Shown here: one piece after another, positions 1 to 8,844 of the stretch
Position numbering within the stretch: the stretch's first letter is position 1
How the letters are laid out: each line of letters opens with the position of its first letter
Source: Xanthomonas translucens pv. translucens DSM 18974
Lineage (GTDB): Bacteria; Pseudomonadota; Gammaproteobacteria; Xanthomonadales; Xanthomonadaceae
Direction: 5' to 3'
Length of the DNA: 12,464 nt
Assembly: GCF_000331775.1 (NCBI RefSeq)
Contig: NZ_CAPJ01000244.1
Coordinates: forward strand, 1-12,464
Program-made: the position numbers and the translations under genes
The notes under the pieces: generated by a model
The model's input: the letters and a program-made list of their open reading frames with translations, nothing else
The model's database searches: none
What the model was told of the DNA's origin: nothing

Positions 1-265
1 ATCGTGCTGCCACGCACACGCCGCGCGGCCTGCTGACGCGCCGCCAGTGCTGGCGCCGACCGGCGTGTGTACCTCTCTGCACAGTCCCGTGCACCCGGTC
101 GGCCGCGCATTCATATCCCTGCGCGTATCGCAAGGCAGCGCACGCCTCACGCGGTTGCGCCCGGCAACGCGCCGCGCTGCACGCACTTGCCTGCAGCACG
201 CGGCGAGGTGCGCAGCGGCAACGGCGCGTCCATCGCCGAGCGCGCCATTTGCGCAACGCCGACGC

Positions 266-279
266 TGATAACGATTACA
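266..279. promoter_or_regulatory. Weak LacI-type operator-like box
   Basis: The sequence TGATAACGATTACA is 14 bases long with a central CG, the layout of LacI-family operators. Its left half TGATAAC resembles the half-site TGATAGC of the perfect palindrome at 377-390. Its right half GATTACA is identical to that of the box at 10291-10304. The two halves match each other at only 4 of 7 positions, so it may be a weak auxiliary site or chance. It lies 111 bases upstream of the strong palindrome. Confidence 0.3.
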
Positions 280-362
280 TCGTGGTCTGCATCCCACCAG
301 ATGCCAGCACCACGTAGCTTTGTTGCGCCGCATGGTGACAAACCTTGGCACACGGGATTAGG

Positions 363-391
363 TTTGCGGCGTTGGGTGATAGCGCTATCAC
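363..391 (+). promoter_or_regulatory. Possible sigma-70-like promoter for the receptor operon
   Basis: A TTTGCG/TTGCGG hexamer (363-369) lies 16-17 bases before TATCAC (386-391). The match to the -35 and -10 consensus is only partial. What makes it plausible is that the -10-like hexamer falls inside the perfect palindrome at 376-391, so a bound repressor would block polymerase. It would give a leader of roughly 310 bases before the receptor start. Other promoter positions are possible. Confidence 0.25.
376..391. promoter_or_regulatory. Perfect 16-bp palindrome, probable LacI-family operator
   Basis: GTGATAGCGCTATCAC is a perfect inverted repeat with no spacer and a central CG. The core TGATAGCGCTATCA has the shape of LacI-family operators, and it resembles the xyl-box type motif (TGGTAGCGCTAACA) described for Xanthomonas xylan-uptake receptors, as I recall it. 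It lies 320 bases upstream of the receptor start in otherwise non-coding DNA. The inferred role is binding of a LacI-type repressor that responds to the sugar or other compound imported by the receptor. No LacI gene is in the window, so the regulator must be elsewhere. Confidence 0.6.
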
Positions 392-542
392 TCTCGGCCA
401 TGCGCCGGGATCTGCGGCCTTCGCCTCACGCACCGCGGCGGCAGCGCCGCACGCATTTCGATTCGGGTTCGAGTATCGGCATTCGCTGTAGCGGTCGGCT
501 TGGTCAGCGTCCGGGTTGGAAACGGGCATGCGATGGTGCCCG

Positions 543-563
543 GCGCCCTTCGGGGGAAGGCGC
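543..563 (+). other. GC-rich hairpin in the receptor leader
   Basis: GCGCC (543-547) pairs with GGCGC (559-563), and TTC (549-551) pairs with GAA (556-558). There is one bulged C at 548 and a GGGG loop. No run of T follows, so it is not a standard intrinsic terminator. It may only be a leader structure or chance folding in GC-rich DNA. Confidence 0.3.
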
Positions 564-600
564 GATCCATCCATCGATCGAGACGTAGGGATCACATGCA

Positions 601-620
601 GACATGCAGCGATGCATGTC
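601..620 (+). other. Perfect 8-bp stem with GCGA tetraloop in the receptor leader
   Basis: GACATGCA (601-608) and TGCATGTC (613-620) are exact reverse complements separated by GCGA, a GNRA-type tetraloop that is especially stable in RNA. A near copy of the left arm, CACATGCA, sits directly upstream at 593-600 and could compete for the right arm with 7 of 8 matches, giving a possible two-state switch. The hairpin ends 91 bases before the receptor start codon. A role in mRNA stability or translation is inference. Confidence 0.4.
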
Positions 621-711
621 ACCCACCAGGGACAGCTTCGACGTCGGCATGCGCCGCGTCGCACGCCGCAGACGGCGTTGTCCGTCCGACTCCAGCACCG
701 AGGACATTCTG

Positions 712-3700
712 ATGCGTCAGCAGTTGAAGAAGTTCCGCTCCAAGGCCATGTTCACCTTCGTCGGTGGAGTGCTGGTGATCAATCCGGCGTTCGCCCAGCA
801 GGCGCCGCCGGCCCAGGCGCAAACCCAGGCCCAGACCCGCCAGCAGCAATCCTCTGCCGACGCCAAAACGCTGGACACGGTCAGCGTCACCGGCATCCGC
901 AACAGCCTCAACCAGTCGATGGGGATCAAGCGCGACAATGCCGGCGTGGTCGATGCGATCAGCGCCGAGGACATCGGCAAGTTTCCCGACACCAACCTGG
1001 CCGAGTCGCTGCAGCGCATCACCGGCATCTCGATCGAGCGCCGCGACGGCGAAGGCGCGCAGGTCACCGCGCGCGGTTTTGGCCCGCAGTTCAACGCGGT
1101 CACCCTCAACGGCCGCGTGATCCCCGGCGCCGATGCGTTCGGCGCGCCGGGCGCGGTGCCGATCGGCGGCGTCGACGGCGGTACCCGCGCGTTCAACTTC
1201 GCCCAGCTCGCCTCCGAGGCGATCACCGGCCTGGAGGTGTACAAGACCAGCCGCGCCAATGCGCCCAGCGGCGGCATCGGCGCCACCATCAACATCCTCA
1301 CCGACCGCCCGTTCAACCACAAAGGCCTGGTCGCCAGCGCCGGCGCCAAGGCCGCGTACGACGACTCGCAGCCGTTCGACAACAAGCTCACGCCGGAAGT
1401 GTCCGGCATCTTCAGCTACACCAACCCGGACAAGACCTGGGGCATCGGCCTGAGCGGCAGCTACCAGAAGCGCCGCGGCGGTTCGGTGCAGGCGACCGAG
1501 AACGGCTGGAACATCCAGCGCTGGACCGGGACCGATCCGGCGCTGCGCCCGGACGCCAACGTGCAGAACGCGCCGGCGATCGGCCAGCTCTACGGCATGC
1601 CCAACGACCTGCGCTACGCCTTCGCCGACTTCGAACGCGAGCGGCTCAACGGCCAGGCGGTGGTGCAGTTCGCGCCGACCGACAGCCTGACCCTGACCCT
1701 GGACTACACCTACTCCAGCAACGAGATCCGCGAGGACCGCGGCGAGCAGGGCATCTGGCTGCAGCGCGCCAACAGCTTCACCGACCTGGTGTTCGACACC
1801 GGGCAGGCAGTGGCCACGCCGGTGTACCTGCGCGACGTACCCAACGGTGCCAAGGACTTCGGCATGGAGCAGCAGCGCAACATGCAGAAGTACAAGCTCG
1901 GCTCGCTCGGCTTCAATGCCGACTGGCAGGCCACCGACCGCCTGCGCCTGACCTTCGACGCGCACAACTCCAAGACCCAGAGCCTGCCCAACGATCCGGT
2001 CACCGGCGGCAGCGCCACTTATTTCAGCTATGCCGGCACCAACAACTGCACAGGCGGCACCCAGTGCGGCGGCCAGTGGGCGCAGGAACTGTTCTTCAAC
2101 AACAGCCTGCCGATCGGCGCGCGTACCTGGTACCCGACCGCGGCCGATTCGGTCGCCGGCACCAACGGCCTGCGCAACCAGAATTTCTCCCCGGCCGAAA
2201 TCGGCTCGCAGGTGCTGCGCATCTACTACCAGAGCCAGGTGACGGAGGTGAAGGAAGGGCGCGTCGATGGCCAGTTCGACTTCGACAACGGCCGCTTCCA
2301 GTTCGGCGTGGACAGTGCCAAGACCACCATGCACCGGCGCATCAGCGACACCAATTCGCCGCTGGGCGACTGGAGCGTGGCCAATGCCGGCAACGAGCCG
2401 GGCATGATCGATCTGCTGCAGCCGGTCGGCATCACCGGCATGTTCAACGACTTCAACGCTTCCGGCGCCGCGCCGGGCGCCTGGCGCGGCAATGCCGACC
2501 AGCTGGCGCTGTGGGGCGGCAATACCTACGGCGCGACCACGCGCTACAACCCGCAGTTCAGCTCCGACAACCAGGTTCAGGAGAAGACGCGCGCCGCCTA
2601 CATGCAGCTGGAGTTCGACGGCGAGCTCGGCGGCATGACCACCAATACCCGCATCGGCGTGCGCTACGAGAAGACCGATGTGGTCTCCACCTCGCAGGTG
2701 GCGACCCCGACCGCGCTGGAGTGGCAGGCCAACAACGATTTCCTGTTGCTGCGCTCGGCCGAACTGCAACCGTTCAGCGAAAAGCACAGCTACAGCCATG
2801 TGCTGCCGAACCTGGATTTCAGCATCAACCTCACCGACACGCTGAAAGGCCGGGCCTCGTTCGGGCAGAGCATCGCGCGGGCGCCGTACACCAACCTGAT
2901 CGCCGGACCGAATCCGGGCACGCCGACCGGCTCGATCCTGATCAACCCGTCCACCCGCGCGTCCGGCGCTGCGGAGAACCCGAGCCTGGATCCGCTGGAA
3001 TCGAACAACCTGGACCTGGCGCTGGAGTGGTACTTCGCCGACGCCAGCTATGTCTCGCTGACGTTCTGGGACAAGCGCGTGTCCAACTTCATCGGCACCA
3101 GCGTCACCCGCGAAAACCTGTACGGCCTGCGCGATCCCACCTCCGGACCGGACGCGCAGACGGCGCTGGCGTTCCTGCAGAGCGGGGCTTGCGCCGCGCA
3201 GGTCGGCGCTGCCGGCAACGACGTGGCGGGGGCATGCTCGGCCAACGACACCTCCCTGTTCTCGGCGATGGCGCTGCTGCGCAACGCCGCGGCCACCGGC
3301 GGGCTGGGCGCCTACAACGGCAGCTCGGCGCAGACCCTGGCGCTGGAAAACGCCTACGACCTGGTCGGCGCGGCGAACGATCCGCTGTACCAGTTCGACG
3401 TGTCGCGCCCGATCAACCAGAACAAGGCCAAGATTCACGGTTGGGAACTGGGCGGTCAGTACTTCCTCGGCGATACCGGCCTCGGCGTGTACGCCAACTA
3501 CACCCTTGTCAAGGGCGACGTCGGCTTCGACAACACGGTGCTGGACCGCGACCAGTTCGCGCTGCTCGGCCTCAGCGACACCGCCAATGTCATGCTGATG
3601 TACGAGAAGTACGGCTGGAGCGCGCGCCTGGCCTGGAACTGGCGCGACCAATACCTGATCGCGGCCAACCAGAACGGGTCCAGCCGCAACCCATACTACG

Positions 3701-3885
3701 TCGAGCCGTACCAGCAGCTGGACCTGAGCGTCAGCTACGCCATCACCGACAACCTGTCCGTAGGCTTCGAGGCGATCAACCTCACCAGCGAGGACGTGCG
3801 CTGGCACGGGCGCTCGGAGAAGCAGGTGATCAAGGTGATCGACCAGAGTCCGCGCTACACGCTGGGCGTGCGCTACAACTTCTGA
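712..3885 (+). CDS. TonB-dependent receptor, Xanthomonas/Caulobacter type
   Basis: An outer-membrane active transporter of 1057 residues, expected to import a large or scarce nutrient using energy from TonB-ExbBD. The ATG at 712 is chosen because GAGGA (700-704) lies 7 bases upstream and the protein then begins with a good signal peptide: a basic start, a hydrophobic stretch at about 12-24 and cleavage after AFA at 28. Upstream in-frame ATGs would add an Arg-rich tail that spoils it. A Gln/Ala-rich linker follows, then a TonB-box-like TLDTVSVTG (53-61), a plug domain (about 75-200, with LAESLQRITGISIERRDGEG and VTARGF) and a long beta-barrel ending in RYNF with C-terminal Phe. Close Cys pairs (446/452 and 827/842) probably form disulfides in outer loops. 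The substrate cannot be read from the sequence; a glycan is plausible from the LacI-type operator upstream. Confidence 0.95.
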   Translation: MRQQLKKFRSKAMFTFVGGVLVINPAFAQQAPPAQAQTQAQTRQQQSSADAKTLDTVSVTGIRNSLNQSMGIKRDNAGVVDAISAEDIGKFPDTNLAESLQRITGISIERRDGEGAQVTARGFGPQFNAVTLNGRVIPGADAFGAPGAVPIGGVDGGTRAFNFAQLASEAITGLEVYKTSRANAPSGGIGATINILTDRPFNHKGLVASAGAKAAYDDSQPFDNKLTPEVSGIFSYTNPDKTWGIGLSGSYQKRRGGSVQATENGWNIQRWTGTDPALRPDANVQNAPAIGQLYGMPNDLRYAFADFERERLNGQAVVQFAPTDSLTLTLDYTYSSNEIREDRGEQGIWLQRANSFTDLVFDTGQAVATPVYLRDVPNGAKDFGMEQQRNMQKYKLGSLGFNADWQATDRLRLTFDAHNSKTQSLPNDPVTGGSATYFSYAGTNNCTGGTQCGGQWAQELFFNNSLPIGARTWYPTAADSVAGTNGLRNQNFSPAEIGSQVLRIYYQSQVTEVKEGRVDGQFDFDNGRFQFGVDSAKTTMHRRISDTNSPLGDWSVANAGNEPGMIDLLQPVGITGMFNDFNASGAAPGAWRGNADQLALWGGNTYGATTRYNPQFSSDNQVQEKTRAAYMQLEFDGELGGMTTNTRIGVRYEKTDVVSTSQVATPTALEWQANNDFLLLRSAELQPFSEKHSYSHVLPNLDFSINLTDTLKGRASFGQSIARAPYTNLIAGPNPGTPTGSILINPSTRASGAAENPSLDPLESNNLDLALEWYFADASYVSLTFWDKRVSNFIGTSVTRENLYGLRDPTSGPDAQTALAFLQSGACAAQVGAAGNDVAGACSANDTSLFSAMALLRNAAATGGLGAYNGSSAQTLALENAYDLVGAANDPLYQFDVSRPINQNKAKIHGWELGGQYFLGDTGLGVYANYTLVKGDVGFDNTVLDRDQFALLGLSDTANVMLMYEKYGWSARLAWNWRDQYLIAANQNGSSRNPYYVEPYQQLDLSVSYAITDNLSVGFEAINLTSEDVRWHGRSEKQVIKVIDQSPRYTLGVRYNF

Positions 3886-3932
3886 GCAAGGCAGGCCGCG
3901 CGCGGCGATGGCCGCGTGCGGCAACGGCGCCC

Positions 3933-3962
3933 GCGCCGCAGCGCGTCTTGCGGGCGCGGCGC
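3933..3962 (+). terminator. GC-rich intercistronic hairpin after the receptor gene
   Basis: GCGCCGC (3933-3939) can pair with GCGGCGC (3956-3962), followed by only TTT. An alternative fold pairs GCGCCCGC (3927-3934) with GCGGGCGC (3950-3957). The weak T run argues against full termination. A leaky terminator or 3' stabiliser is plausible, so that the receptor is made in much larger amounts than the three enzymes behind it. Confidence 0.35.
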
Positions 3963-4026
3963 TTTGCTGCAATGGTCGCGTGGCGCGGCGCGCGTCCCGT
4001 TCCGCCACCGACCCGCTGGAGTCCAG

Positions 4027-4788
4027 ATGGCCCGCTACGAATTGCTCAACAACGTCGCCCACCAGGACCTGCGGGTGATCCTGCGCTTCGGCCCGGCATT
4101 CGGCGACGCCACCGGCGTGGTGCAGGCGTTCCCGACCGAATACGCCGAGTTGCAGCGCGAGTATCCGATCCTGCTGCGCAAGGACGCAGACGGGGGCTTC
4201 CAGTCGGTGGCGCTGCTGGGCTTCGAACAGCAGGAGAACCTGTTCCTGCAGGACGCGCGCTGGAATGCGGCATACCTGCCGGGCATCGTCGCCAAGGGGC
4301 CGTTCCTGATCGGCTTCCAGGAACAGCACGAGGACGGCGTGCTGCGCCGCGAGCCGGTGATCCACGTCGATCTGGACCACCCGCGGGTCAGTTTCAGCGA
4401 AGGCGAGCGGGTGTTCCTGCCGCAGGGCGGACACAGCCCGTATCTTGAGCACATCATCACCGTGTTGCGCGGCATCCGCGATGGCGTGGAAGGCGGCAAT
4501 GCCATGTTCGCCGCGTTCGCCGCGCTTGGCCTGATCCAGCCGCTGCGCATCGACGTGCAGCTCGGCCAGGCGCATAACGTGCACCTGGCCGGGCTCTACG
4601 GCATCGACCGCGAGCGGCTGGCGGCGCTAGATGCGCCGTCGTTGCATGGGCTGCACCGCGCCGGCTATCTGGAAGGCGCTTACCTGCTGCTGGCGTCGCT
4701 GCACAACCTGCGCCGGCTGATGGCCGAGAAGCAGCGCCGGCTGCAGCATGCCTGTGCGGACGCGGTCGCCTCCGGGCAGGCGGCCTGA
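4027..4788 (+). CDS. SapC family protein
   Basis: A 253-residue protein of the SapC family (named after a Campylobacter surface-layer locus; unrelated to the peptide ABC permease also called SapC). The family is recognised from an N-terminal block with PTEYAELQREYPILLRKD (36-53), the block ARWNAAYLPGIVAKGPFLIG (77-96) with its Trp/Tyr/Pro/Phe pattern, and the C-terminal part with IDVQL and the helix YLLLASLHNLRRLMAEKQRR. The ATG at 4027 is preferred over the in-frame ATG at 3916 because TGGAG (4016-4020) lies 6 bases upstream and family similarity starts here. There is no signal peptide or membrane segment, so it is probably cytoplasmic. Its biochemical role is not established. It sits 141 bases after the receptor and 5 bases before the cupin gene, as is usual for this cassette in xanthomonads and Caulobacter relatives. 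Confidence 0.88.
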   Translation: MARYELLNNVAHQDLRVILRFGPAFGDATGVVQAFPTEYAELQREYPILLRKDADGGFQSVALLGFEQQENLFLQDARWNAAYLPGIVAKGPFLIGFQEQHEDGVLRREPVIHVDLDHPRVSFSEGERVFLPQGGHSPYLEHIITVLRGIRDGVEGGNAMFAAFAALGLIQPLRIDVQLGQAHNVHLAGLYGIDRERLAALDAPSLHGLHRAGYLEGAYLLLASLHNLRRLMAEKQRRLQHACADAVASGQAA

Positions 4789-4793
4789 GCGTC

Positions 4794-5813
4794 GTGGCGG
4801 CGCTGGCGCCGATGGCCGAGCGCAGCGATTGCCAGGCCGGCGCGTTGCCGCTGGCCGACCTGCTCGCCGCCGGCGAGCCGCTGGTATTGCGTGGCCTGGT
4901 GCGCGACTGGGCGCTGGTCCAGGCCGGCGTGCGCGGCACCGGTGCGGCGATGGACCTGCTGCGCGGCCACAGCAACGGCCGCCCGCTGCAATACTCCTAC
5001 GGCGCGCCGGAGATCGCCGGCCGTCCGTTCTACAACGACGATTTCACCGCGTTGAACTTCGAGGTGCGGCGCGGCGACCTGCACGGCCTGCTGGACGCCA
5101 TCGCCGCGCACCTGGACGACCCGCGGCCGCCGGCCTACTACCTGGCCTCGCAGCCGGTGGACGACAGCCTGCCGGGGTTCCGCGACGGCAACGACGTGGA
5201 CTTCGCCGCGCATGGCATTCCCGCACGGCCCAGCATCTGGATCGGCAACCGCATCACCGCGTCCTGCCATTACGACGCGCCGAACAACCTGGCCTGCTGC
5301 GCGGTCGGCCGGCGCCGCTTCACCGTATTCCCGCCAGAGCAGATCGGCAATCTTTACCCCGGTCCGCTGGAGCCGACGCCGGGCGGGCAGGCGATCAGCG
5401 TGGTGGATTTCGCCGCGCCGGACTTCGCCTGCTATCCGCGCTTTCGCGCCGCGCTGGCGCACGGCCGCAGCGCGGTGCTGGAACCCGGCGATGCGCTGTT
5501 CCTGCCCGGCCTGTGGTGGCACCACGTGCAAGGGCTGGAGCCGTTCAACGTGCTGGTCAACTACTGGTGGAGCAGCGCCCCGGCGTACCTGCCGGCGCCG
5601 ATGCAGGCGCTGTACCACGCGCTGTGGGCGATCCGCGACCGGCCCGAGGCGGAGAAGGCGGCGTGGCGGGCCATCTTCGACTACTACGTGTTCGGCCCGG
5701 CCGAGCGCGCCGGCGCGCACCTGCCGGCGCCGGCGCGGCACCTGCTCGGACCGATCGACGACACGCAGGCGCGGCAGCTGCGCGCGATGCTGCTGGCCAA
5801 GCTCAACCGCTGA
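4794..5813 (+). CDS. FIH-like cupin/JmjC protein (cupin_8 family), putative Fe(II)/2-oxoglutarate oxygenase
   Basis: A 339-residue cytoplasmic protein of the cupin_8/JmjC-like fold. The iron-binding HxD is H159-Y160-D161 and the distal His is in WWHH (H243/H244), so a complete facial triad is present. The stretch HYDAPNN...GRRRFTVFPPEQ...LYP and the later FLPGLWWHHV...VNYWW parallel the asparaginyl hydroxylase FIH closely. N165 aligns with FIH Asn205. FIH Lys214, which holds 2-oxoglutarate, is replaced by Arg (R174). The start is uncertain: GTG at 4794 follows the SapC stop by 5 bases with no clear ribosome site, and ATG at 4812 in the same frame would remove six residues. Translational coupling to SapC is likely. 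The expected activity is hydroxylation of a protein or small molecule; the substrate is unknown and this is inference from the fold. Confidence 0.85.
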   Translation: MAALAPMAERSDCQAGALPLADLLAAGEPLVLRGLVRDWALVQAGVRGTGAAMDLLRGHSNGRPLQYSYGAPEIAGRPFYNDDFTALNFEVRRGDLHGLLDAIAAHLDDPRPPAYYLASQPVDDSLPGFRDGNDVDFAAHGIPARPSIWIGNRITASCHYDAPNNLACCAVGRRRFTVFPPEQIGNLYPGPLEPTPGGQAISVVDFAAPDFACYPRFRAALAHGRSAVLEPGDALFLPGLWWHHVQGLEPFNVLVNYWWSSAPAYLPAPMQALYHALWAIRDRPEAEKAAWRAIFDYYVFGPAERAGAHLPAPARHLLGPIDDTQARQLRAMLLAKLNR

Positions 5814-5847
5814 CGCTGCCATTCACGACTGCAGGAGAGACGACGCA

Positions 5848-7365
5848 ATGGCCCAGATACGCAAGGTGGTGATCGCAGGCGGCGGCACGGCGGGCTGGAT
5901 CGCCGCCTGCGCGCTGGCGCACCAGTTCCGCGACCTGCTGGACATCACCCTGATCGAGTCCGAGCAGATCGGCACGGTCGGCGTCGGCGAATCCACGGTG
6001 CCGCCGATCCGCAGCTTCCACCGTTTCCTGCAGATCGACGAGCAGGAATTCCTGCGCGCCGTGGCCGGCACCTTCAAGCTCTCCATTTCCTTCGAGAACT
6101 GGCGCCGGCCCGGCGAGCGCTACATTCACCCGTTCGGCCTCACCGGACACAGCACCCTGGTCTGCGCGTTCCACCATTTCTGGCTGGAGGCGCAGCGGCG
6201 CGGGATGCTCTCCGAGCTGGGCGACTACTGCCTGGAAACGGTGGCTTCGCGCCTGGACCGTTTCGCGCTGCAGCAGTCGCCGCCGGTCAACTACGCCTAC
6301 CATCTCGATGCCGGGCTGTACGCGCGGCTGCTGCGCGGCCACGCCGAGCGCCACGGCCTCAAGCGCGTGGAGGGCAAGATCCAGCAGGTCCGGCAGCACG
6401 CCGAGAGCGGCTGCGTCGAAGCGCTGCTGCTGGAAGACGGTACGCTGGTCGAAGGCGATCTGTTCATCGACTGCACCGGTTTCCGCGGCCTGCTGATCGA
6501 ACAGACCCTGCACACCGGCTACGAGGACTGGACGCAGTGGCTGCCCTGCGATCGCGCGGTGGCGGTGCAGACCGAGGCGGTGGCGGCGCCGGTGCCGTAC
6601 ACCCGCGCCATCGCCCACGCCGCCGGCTGGCGCTGGCATATCCCGCTGCAGCACCGCGTCGGTTGCGGGCTGGTGTTTTCCAGCGCGCACCTGTCCGACG
6701 ACGAAGCACGCGCCAAGCTGCTGCACGACGCGGCCGCGCCGCCGATCAAGGAGCCGTGGCTGGTGCCGTTCCGCACCGGCCGCCGGCGCAAGGCCTGGAA
6801 CAAGAACGTGGTCGCGCTGGGCCTGGCCAGCGGCTTCATCGAGCCGCTGGAATCCACCAGCATCCATCTGACCATCGCCGCGGTGATGCGGCTGCTCACG
6901 CTGTTCCCGAGCGAGGGCATCGCGCCGGCGATGGTGGACCTGTACAACGCTGTCAGCCGCGCCGAGATGGAGCACGTGCGCGATTTCATCATCCTGCACT
7001 ACCACGCCAACCAGCGCGACGAACCGATGTGGCAGGCCTGCCGCGAGATGGCGCTGCCCGATTCGCTGCAGCAGCGGCTGCGCGCCTGGCGCGAGCGCGC
7101 GCACGCCTGGCAGGGCGCCGACGAACTGTTCCGGGTGGATTCGTGGATCCACGTGCTGCTCGGCCAGGGCATCGTGCCGGCGCAGCACCACCCGCTGGCG
7201 CGCGCGCTGCCGGACCAGCAGCTGCAGCAGTTCCTCGACGCGATCCGCCAGCCCATCGACCGCGCGGTGGCGCAGATGCCGTCGCAGCAGGACTTCATCG
7301 CCCGCTATTGCAAGGCCGGGCCGGAGGTCTGGGCAGGGCGGGCTCCTGTTGCGGCGCCGGCATGA
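5848..7365 (+). CDS. Flavin-dependent halogenase (tryptophan halogenase family)
   Basis: A 505-residue enzyme that should use FADH2, O2 and halide to halogenate an electron-rich aromatic ring. The FAD-binding GGGTAG is at 11-16, followed by VGVGESTVP (44-52). The Lys that carries the active halogen species (PrnA/RebH K79) is K77 in GTFKLS. The flavin monooxygenase-suppressing motif WxWxIP is W261-R-W-H-I-P266. The catalytic Glu (PrnA E346) is E335 in EPLESTS. Ser338 replaces the Gly usual after EST in free-tryptophan halogenases, as in the receptor-linked subgroup. AGGAG (5833-5837) lies 10 bases before ATG 5848, and the gap from the cupin gene is 34 bases. Characterised relatives from Xanthomonas and Brevundimonas act on free indole in vitro with a preference for bromide, but their natural substrates are unknown. 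It needs a flavin reductase, which is not encoded nearby. Confidence 0.93.
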   Translation: MAQIRKVVIAGGGTAGWIAACALAHQFRDLLDITLIESEQIGTVGVGESTVPPIRSFHRFLQIDEQEFLRAVAGTFKLSISFENWRRPGERYIHPFGLTGHSTLVCAFHHFWLEAQRRGMLSELGDYCLETVASRLDRFALQQSPPVNYAYHLDAGLYARLLRGHAERHGLKRVEGKIQQVRQHAESGCVEALLLEDGTLVEGDLFIDCTGFRGLLIEQTLHTGYEDWTQWLPCDRAVAVQTEAVAAPVPYTRAIAHAAGWRWHIPLQHRVGCGLVFSSAHLSDDEARAKLLHDAAAPPIKEPWLVPFRTGRRRKAWNKNVVALGLASGFIEPLESTSIHLTIAAVMRLLTLFPSEGIAPAMVDLYNAVSRAEMEHVRDFIILHYHANQRDEPMWQACREMALPDSLQQRLRAWRERAHAWQGADELFRVDSWIHVLLGQGIVPAQHHPLARALPDQQLQQFLDAIRQPIDRAVAQMPSQQDFIARYCKAGPEVWAGRAPVAAPA

Positions 7366-7389
7366 GGGGCAGTGCGATGGGAGCCCGCC
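7337..7389 (+). terminator. Perfect 10-bp inverted repeat across the halogenase stop codon
   Basis: GGCGGGCTCC (7337-7346) and GGAGCCCGCC (7380-7389) are exact reverse complements with a 33-base loop that contains the TGA at 7363-7365. No T run follows. It could be a 3'-end structure or Rho-dependent stop for the four-gene operon. It also codes for the last residues of the halogenase, so the left arm is constrained by coding. Confidence 0.35.
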
Positions 7390-7593
7390 GTGCAGGCAGG
7401 AGCCGTGTTGCAGCGCCCGGTGCAGCAGGCACGCCGCATGCGTCTGGCTGACCGGCATCGCCCGCAGCAGTCCGGACCGATCCAAGCGGACGGCGAGCGC
7501 TACCCCGATGCGCGCAGCTACCCGTCGTGTCGGGTCGCGGCGGGCGCGGCATGGCGATGATCGAACCACCGCCCTCTTCGAGGATTGCTGCGC

Positions 7594-8844
7594 ATGAATC
7601 TGCACGCCTTGGGTCTTTCCGTAGCGTTGGCGCTGGCCGTGGCGCTGCCGGCGCATGCCGTCGACTTCACGAAAGCGGAACTGGCGCGCGCCACCGCACT
7701 GCAGCAGCGCCTGCTGACGCTGGATTCGCATCTGGACACGCCGGCCAATTTCGCGCGCGGCGACTTCGACATGATGGCCGCGCATGCCGGCAATCGCCTG
7801 GCGCAGGTAGACTATCCGCGCATGCTCGCCGGCGCGCTGGACGGCGGCTTCTGGGCGATCTACACCGGCCAGGGCGAGCGGAGTAGGCAAGCGCATCTGG
7901 ACGATCGCGACGCCGGGCTGCAGCGCCTGATGGCGATCCACGCACTGCTCGCGGCCTATCCAACGCAGTTCGGCATGGCCACCACGCCGGCTGATGCGGT
8001 GCGGATCAAGGCCGCCGGCAAGCGCGTGGTGTACCTGAGCATGGAGAACGCCAGCCCGCTGGTCGCCGATCCCACGCTGCTGCGCTTCTACCACGCGCAA
8101 GGCTTGCGGCTGATGAGCACTGTGCATTTCCTCAACAACGAATTCGCCGATTCGGCCACCGACCCGAAGGGGCCGGAATGGCAGGGCCTGAGTCCCGCCG
8201 GACGGGCGCTGGTGCAGCAGGCGCAGAAACTCGGCATCGTCATCGACCAGTCGCATGCCTCCGATGCGGTCTTCGATCAGTTGATCGCGTTGTCGCCGGT
8301 GCCGATCCTGCTCTCGCACAGCGGCGCGCGCGCAGTGCATGCGCATCCGCGCAACATCGACGATGCGCGGTTGAAGGTATTGGCCGCGCACGGCGGGGTG
8401 ATCCAGATGAACTCCTACGGCGGTTACCTGATCGACACCGGCGCCGGCTCCGAGCGCAAGGCCGCCGAGCAGGCGCTGATCGACGGATACGGCGGCTGGG
8501 AGCATCTGTCACTGGCCGATGGGCCCAAGCTCGGCGACGCCATGAAGGCGCTGGATGCCAATCATCCGGTGCGCCAGGCGACGCTCGACGACTTCTTCGC
8601 GCACTTGCAACACGTGCTGGCGCTGATCGGCCCCGAGCACGTGGGCATCGGCATGGACTGGGACGGCGGCGGCGGCGTGGTCGGCATGGAGGACGTCGGC
8701 GACCTGCCCAAGATCACCGCCTGGTTGCTGCGCAAGGGCTATAGCGAGCAGCAGATCGCCGCCATCTGGGGCGGCAACGTGTTGCGGGTGATGCAGCAGG
8801 CGCAGGACTGGGCCGCCACGCAGGCGCGTGCCGGTGCTTCCTGA
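7594..8844 (+). CDS. Membrane dipeptidase (peptidase M19), exported
   Basis: A 416-residue zinc dipeptidase of the renal dipeptidase family, which cleaves dipeptides including those with a D-residue at the C-terminal side. A signal peptide is clear (MNLHALGLSVALALAVALPAHA, cut after 22), and no lipobox is seen, so it should be periplasmic. Metal ligands by family alignment are H46 and D48 in DSHLDTP, the bridging E151 in SMENAS, H221 in DQSHAS and H242 in LSHSGARAV. R253 (HPRN) and the Asp in GMDWDGG (355/357) complete the active site. GAGGA (7580-7584) is 9 bases before ATG 7594, which fits the signal peptide; a TTG at 7585 is less likely. A gap of 228 bases from the halogenase suggests its own promoter. 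A role in peptide scavenging or peptidoglycan turnover is inferred. Confidence 0.93.
   Translation: MNLHALGLSVALALAVALPAHAVDFTKAELARATALQQRLLTLDSHLDTPANFARGDFDMMAAHAGNRLAQVDYPRMLAGALDGGFWAIYTGQGERSRQAHLDDRDAGLQRLMAIHALLAAYPTQFGMATTPADAVRIKAAGKRVVYLSMENASPLVADPTLLRFYHAQGLRLMSTVHFLNNEFADSATDPKGPEWQGLSPAGRALVQQAQKLGIVIDQSHASDAVFDQLIALSPVPILLSHSGARAVHAHPRNIDDARLKVLAAHGGVIQMNSYGGYLIDTGAGSERKAAEQALIDGYGGWEHLSLADGPKLGDAMKALDANHPVRQATLDDFFAHLQHVLALIGPEHVGIGMDWDGGGGVVGMEDVGDLPKITAWLLRKGYSEQQIAAIWGGNVLRVMQQAQDWAATQARAGAS

Follow-up and report, generated by a model that had tools for sequence, protein, structure and literature searches.

We analysed a 12,464-bp stretch of DNA from Xanthomonas translucens pv. 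translucens DSM 18974 (contig NZ_CAPJ01000244.1; "the window" below means this whole stretch) and found that four of its genes, encoding a TonB-dependent outer-membrane receptor, a SapC protein, a cupin resembling the 2-oxoglutarate (2OG)-dependent oxygenase FIH, and a flavin-dependent halogenase, almost certainly belong to a conserved functional unit. Computed comparisons showed that the cassette is conserved, ordered, co-diverging and receptor-linked, while its sugar context varies. All four genes point the same way and are separated by 141, 5 and 34 bases, as an earlier sequence-only reading had stated, and a candidate operator lies upstream:

376..391, unstranded: candidate LacI-type operator, a perfect 16-bp palindrome (GTGATAGCGCTATCAC), 320 bp 5' of the receptor start.
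712..3885, plus strand: TonB-dependent receptor, TIGR01782 (861.5 bits in a profile scan, cut-off 310), with Plug and barrel domains and, by eye, a signal-peptide-like N-terminus.
4027..4788, plus strand: SapC protein, PF07277 (213 bits, profile positions 1-220 of 220, cut-off 28.9), by eye without a signal peptide.
4794..5813, plus strand: Cupin_8 or FIH-like 2OG-Fe(II) oxygenase (225 bits), with a GTG start, the one start considered, and the triad H159, D161 and H243.
5848..7365, plus strand: flavin-dependent halogenase of the Xcc/BrvH class and canonical WxWxIP type (halogenase 2; Trp_halogenase, 648 bits).

The sequence-only reading had counted three enzymes here; we count two enzymes plus SapC, there being no demonstration that SapC is an enzyme.

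The prevalence of these families was surveyed in 299 genomes of the phylum, with at most about five halogenase candidates scored per genome. SapC was found in 104 genomes and Trp_halogenase matches of at least 250 bits in 36, of which 35 also carry SapC (table of 35, 1, 69 and 194, with Fisher values computed ignoring relatedness). Among the 13 families with a halogenase at this threshold, 12 combine it with SapC within one genome. In two of the 36 genomes (G144 and G272) the sole match is a divergent homologue with Arg at the catalytic Lys, and excluding both leaves a pairing of 33 of 34. Independent occurrence of the homologues in most genomes, which the sequence-only reading had named as an outcome that would refute joint function, was thus seen for SapC, which lacks such a halogenase in 69 of its 104 genomes, but not for the halogenase. 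An additional cassette gene, DUF6445, was detected in 15 genomes, all within the 36 halogenase genomes, two of the matches being weak (52 bits in G214; 39 bits with stops in G217). Paraglaciecola mesophila KMM 241, a non-pathogenic strain, has the cassette together with DUF6445 at locus L003.

Gene neighborhoods were compared at 107 SapC loci (the window and 106 others, 100 of them taken among the SapC matches listed). Because the gene caller often picked antisense frames, counts were based on hidden Markov model (HMM) passes. A halogenase stood in a same-strand chain with SapC in at least 28 of the 107 loci, a lower bound since many of the loci are short contigs, and this recurrence is far above chance. 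Within the 28 chains the receptor came first in 26, and the cupin was present in 21 and absent from 7. The gene order was nearly constant: receptor, (halogenase 1), SapC, (cupin), halogenase 2, (DUF6445). Departures from it were an extra halogenase and cupin in L079, a halogenase-1 type after SapC in L078, and a halogenase directly after SapC in the short locus L176. The remaining loci held SapC alone (78) or SapC and DUF6445 only (one). Receptors in halogenase-free SapC loci numbered at least two in 1366 kb, again a lower bound because the receptor HMM was narrow and missed seven receptors seen by eye. The similar gene sets that the sequence-only reading had reported for xanthomonads were seen at L001, L047, L048, L049, L051, L053 and L054. 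The nearest named relative met was Xanthomonas bonasiae, with a SapC 94% identical to that of the window. For Caulobacter relatives, also named there, the Caulobacter vibrioides control genome gave matches for all three families, but its PF04820 match is unspecific, as E. coli matches too.

Linkage to the receptor was also evident from the halogenase side. We examined 40 halogenase-centred loci drawn from the upper part of the halogenase match list, two of which have SapC, and found a receptor within 0.5 kb of the halogenase in 37. Thirty of these receptors were detected by HMM (20 on the same strand, 10 divergent) and seven by eye, with L108, L116, L122 and L142 confirmed by Pfam and L109, L111 and L139 seen by eye only. 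Two further loci had a receptor at 2.2 kb (L121) and 7.4 kb (L126), and none was found near the halogenases of L130. With 12 to 29 TIGR01782 receptors per genome in 17 halogenase genomes (up to about 27 candidates scored, and the TIGR01782 type alone counted), chance adjacency to a halogenase is estimated at a few per cent. The linked receptors are of two build types. Across 21 complete cassettes, the pairwise distances of all gene pairs correlate, with r from 0.62 to 0.88 and the latter value for receptor and halogenase; none of 2000 permutations was as high. Where one genome has two cassettes (L048/L049, L053/L054 and L079/L092), these are roughly as far apart as cassettes from different families, and the co-divergence therefore does not merely reflect species relatedness.

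The candidate operator of the window has a 14-bp core, TGATAGCGCTATCA (377-390), which is itself a perfect palindrome, with one match at up to two mismatches against 0.01 expected; it also lies 5' of the receptors in L001 and L047. By its sequence, the palindrome is a putative site of the LacI type described for carbohydrate-utilisation TonB receptor (CUT) loci, which serve sugar uptake. More than 75% of LacI sites lie 30-140 bp upstream of the start codon, according to the available text of PMC4052901, and the candidate of the window is more distant than most. CG-centred palindromes within 850 bp 5' of the receptor were present in 19 of 28 receptor-first cassettes (26 from the SapC chains, plus L129 and L133) versus 65 of 1400 control windows, the controls being mostly coding and near-identical loci (L003/L004; window/L001/L047) being counted separately. 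These palindromes vary in sequence between cassettes. Sites resembling TGAAAGCGCTTACA occur in eight cassettes, six of them with GH1, GH3 and MFS cluster members. Four cassettes have sites resembling TGACAACGCTGTCA, and in two of these four the neighbors include GH20, BadF-type kinase and amidohydrolase genes; the upstream palindrome of L084 is TGGAAACGTTTCCA. Sugar-degrading genes are present in several of the relatives' cassette loci, and the surroundings differ (GH1/GH3/MFS/LacI; GH20/sugar kinase/amidohydrolase; FecR; GH68), giving settings that we name beta-glucoside, amino-sugar, levan/sucrose-type and FecR, with the same enzymes throughout.

The halogenase of the window contains the full Lys/Glu/WxWxIP set ascribed to it earlier, namely Lys77 (Lys in 103 of 112 homologues), Glu335 (kept in 92% of homologues, and presumably the catalytic Glu known from PrnA and RebH) and WRWHIP at 261-266, together with the FAD motif GGGTAG (GxGxxG). 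The protein thus has the sequence features of a flavin-dependent halogenase and is predicted to have halogenation activity. Its best solved matches are Xcc4156 (6y1w, 555 bits), 9luq (544 bits) and BrvH (6frl, 468 bits). The FAD, Lys and WxWxIP motifs are common to the window enzyme and these Xcc/BrvH-type halogenases, Xcc-b100_1333 included, and its STVPPI motif is identical to that given for Xcc-b100-1333 in the available text of PMC8269204. As far as the accessible parts of PMC7336383 and PMC5945002 go, related halogenases accept indole and not free tryptophan, and Xcc4156 and BrvH have no known native substrate, a peptide having been suggested. Publications on halogenases of this type, in the text available, treat single enzymes and do not mention a TonB receptor, SapC or cupin.

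In the halogenase upstream of SapC (halogenase 1), WxWDI[GAS] replaces WxWxIP in 13 of 13 cases (L029, L072, L075, L077, L080, L084, L085, L098 and others), so halogenase 1 could be a flavin enzyme that hydroxylates or is changed in some other way. Groups of two to four halogenases, in tandem or facing each other, beside a receptor (L107, L115, L117, L118, L119 and L132; a further group is in L130) hold one divergent copy without the catalytic Lys, which is perhaps a non-catalytic partner. A divergent halogenase homologue with Arg at the catalytic Lys position was seen in L044 and L059.

FIH and JMJD5, both protein hydroxylases, are the closest solved sequences to the cupin of the window. The alignment covers the metal-binding core, and the match to these JmjC-type 2OG hydroxylases spans just 111 residues. 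The complete iron triad that the sequence-only reading had noticed is indeed there and is kept in 30 of 30 related cupins, its HxD and H being in register with FIH. At the position of the 2OG-binding lysine of FIH, which we take to be Lys214, the window cupin has Arg; since the basic charge is kept, we class the protein as FIH-like and not as FIH. DUF6445 looks like another 2OG-Fe(II) oxygenase by motif and predicted fold, the fold resembling OGFOD1, lysyl hydroxylase, PHD2 and a bacterial prolyl hydroxylase solved with EF-Tu.

Outside the cassette, SapC often has as neighbors open frames of great length (2000-3200 aa, a few of them truncated where the locus ends), genes of the HlyD, M50/HlyD, SecA-like and outer-membrane efflux kinds, or both (L014, L018, L021, L032, L046, L055, L101, L067, L044 and L059). 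Beside these giant, apparently exported proteins, SapC perhaps belongs to a distinct system that exports giant proteins to the cell surface. In Pseudoxanthomonas koreensis, a SapC 73% identical to that of the window (L002, 8402-9124) lies on a 10.9-kb contig without receptor, cupin or halogenase, and may be a stray copy or come from an odd contig.

The sequence-only reading had proposed that the enzymes act together on either the imported compound or a protein partner. The conserved, co-diverging unit agrees with joint action, several cassettes do lie in sugar loci, and the choice now leans towards a protein partner, because the enzyme set stays constant while sugar genes and operators change. 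It is chiefly this constancy that speaks against the imported sugar being the substrate. That the target is a protein is further suggested by the lack of visible signal peptides in the enzymes, a halogenase class whose studied members ignore free tryptophan, a cupin closest to FIH and JMJD5, and the occurrence of SapC near giant, apparently exported proteins and export genes. We tentatively favor, at somewhat less than even confidence, the reading that the cassette is an oxidative tailoring unit with a protein target, for which the receptor or some other protein of the envelope is the likeliest choice. In such a mechanism, a LacI-type sugar switch would control one operon encoding both the outer-membrane receptor and the tailoring unit, which would work in the cytosol. 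SapC would serve as an adaptor or scaffold presenting a polypeptide, in all likelihood the receptor just after its synthesis or a different envelope protein. Before export, the halogenase would brominate or chlorinate an indole side chain of the presented polypeptide and the FIH-like oxygenase would hydroxylate a side chain. In the presence of the sugar, the mark would then tune the receptor or how it is assembled. Among the possible targets, the receptor is the one that is constant.

Receptor residues were compared in an alignment of 74 sequences (30 SapC-linked, 29 halogenase-linked and 15 without a seen link), with clade statements based on the tree plus leaf order. The 25 full-cassette receptors group together, with W671 and D382 in 25 of 25 and P370 in 24 of 25, whereas W671 is present in one member of a related group of seven receptors, which come from reduced cassettes (L006, L072 and L077) or have no visible link. 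The pair W554 and W977 is found in each of the 25 full-cassette receptors and in 14 halogenase-only receptors of one group, and not in the other linked receptors. The pattern is mixed; it is compatible with receptor modification and does not demonstrate it.

Several observations weigh against the receptor, or any protein, as the target. W671 follows one clade, and L172, which belongs to that clade, has it although cassette genes are absent from the 1.5 kb upstream and the roughly 8 kb downstream. A single target tryptophan for all linked receptors was rejected, as no Trp column is common to the 59 halogenase-linked receptors, and the best one, W977, is present in 73% of these versus 27% of the 15 unlinked receptors. 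A cytosolic enzyme would need to catch the receptor before Sec export, and we know of no modified receptor of this kind. Small-molecule oxygenases, too, are among the matches of DUF6445 (HygX, Foldseek E 2.3e-5). As to the sugar switch, no sugar-catabolic gene or inner-membrane sugar permease was found among the scanned window genes, the window having just 711 bases 5' of the receptor.

Among the alternatives, the one that holds up best, although unlikely, is that the enzymes act in the cytoplasm on an imported compound, such as an aromatic group attached to glycosides from plants or algae, either to detoxify it or to break it down. The cassette does sit behind an uptake receptor with sugar-type operators, sugar-catabolic genes neighbor several cassettes, and free indole is accepted by Xcc/BrvH halogenases (available text of PMC5945002). 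However, the same enzymes accompany all four settings named above, where the substrates are non-aromatic; no aromatic-breakdown enzyme was identified among those neighbors that were scanned; and halogenation would be an odd opening step in catabolism.

Next, and doubtful, comes a cassette that starts from a precursor whose gene lies elsewhere and turns it, by halogenation and hydroxylation, into a modified peptide or small metabolite, with the receptor re-importing or sensing the product as a signal or siderophore-like compound. Halogenase, 2OG oxygenases and TonB receptor look like a tailoring set, and the peptide hypothesis for BrvH and Xcc4156 (PMC7336383 and PMC5945002, in the parts available) fits with it. 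Against this, the operators are of the LacI-type sugar kind, not of iron or quorum control, and no assembly-line gene was identified among the neighbors scanned. A hidden precursor peptide was sought and rejected, since 258 small open reading frames from the gaps and 700-bp flanks of 26 cassettes gave no family widely shared across genera. Strong matches were within Xanthomonas (window/L001), inside a LacI gene (L062/L076) and in one upstream pair (L078/L085, E about 2e-6) that lies beside a LacI-cluster gene on the other strand; a weaker cross-genus pair was L054/L084 (3e-4). Least probable is mere co-regulation, with receptor, SapC, oxygenase and halogenase having separate roles in sugar-replete cells and sharing an operon for convenience: the many SapC genomes without a halogenase, the seven cupin-free chains, the lone SapC of P. 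koreensis and the seven halogenase genomes without a clear cupin_8 (four with no match on testing, only one with a strong match) agree with it. Against it stand a gene order that hardly varies between families and in more than one class, the way in which the four genes diverge in step, and the 35 of 36 halogenase-SapC pairing.

Downstream of the cassette, the window encodes an M19 dipeptidase (7594-8844), a glycerate kinase and then, on the other strand, an amino-acid permease. The nearest genome compared (L047) has open frames in the same order with matching starts 3' of its cassette, where the Pfam scan identified the dipeptidase only. The M19 dipeptidase gene follows the cassette in both, and in four other loci (L068, L070, L071 and L081) it directly adjoins SapC on the other strand, near an mraZ/mraW cell-wall cluster. 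A scan of positions 1-7700 gave no sigma-70-like promoter site, a result that neither supports nor excludes separate promoters for the cassette genes.

The kind of locus is known. The window shares a TIGR01782-type receptor and a candidate LacI-type operator with the CUT loci of Xanthomonas, and "tryptophan halogenase" has been mentioned in passing in polysaccharide loci of marine bacteria. The beta-glucoside and amino-sugar settings of its relatives are similar to the LacI-regulated Shewanella sugar loci, as far as the available text of PMC2996990 describes them. The cassette differs from these CUT and Shewanella loci by the addition of SapC, oxygenase and halogenase; a term search of the available text of PMC1790865 and PMC2996990 gave neither "halogenase" nor "SapC". 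No description of the receptor-SapC-cupin-halogenase linkage was found in the literature searched, including the accessible parts of PMC7336383, PMC8269204, PMC2996990, PMC4052901, PMC5945002, PMC11340318, PMC13282271, PMC12125979 and PMC11337851.

A protein-target mechanism, if proven, would be new. It is conceivable, if rather unlikely, that sugar-grown bacteria use a receptor-linked machine of SapC, flavin halogenase and 2OG oxygenases to put halogen and hydroxyl groups on the outer-membrane receptors that they make, or on a different protein of their envelope, and that this is the native job of the Xcc/BrvH halogenases. To our knowledge, no bacterial protein modification of this kind, halogenation plus hydroxylation of a cell's own envelope proteins, has been described. 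Xcc/BrvH-class halogenases are under study as biocatalysts, although no native substrates are known for them. With the cassette, its sugar operators, the SapC partner and DUF6445, the search for the target narrows to a single inducible operon and few candidates, and recurrence of the cassette behind different sugar switches in distant bacteria indicates where the natural target of these halogenases could be sought.

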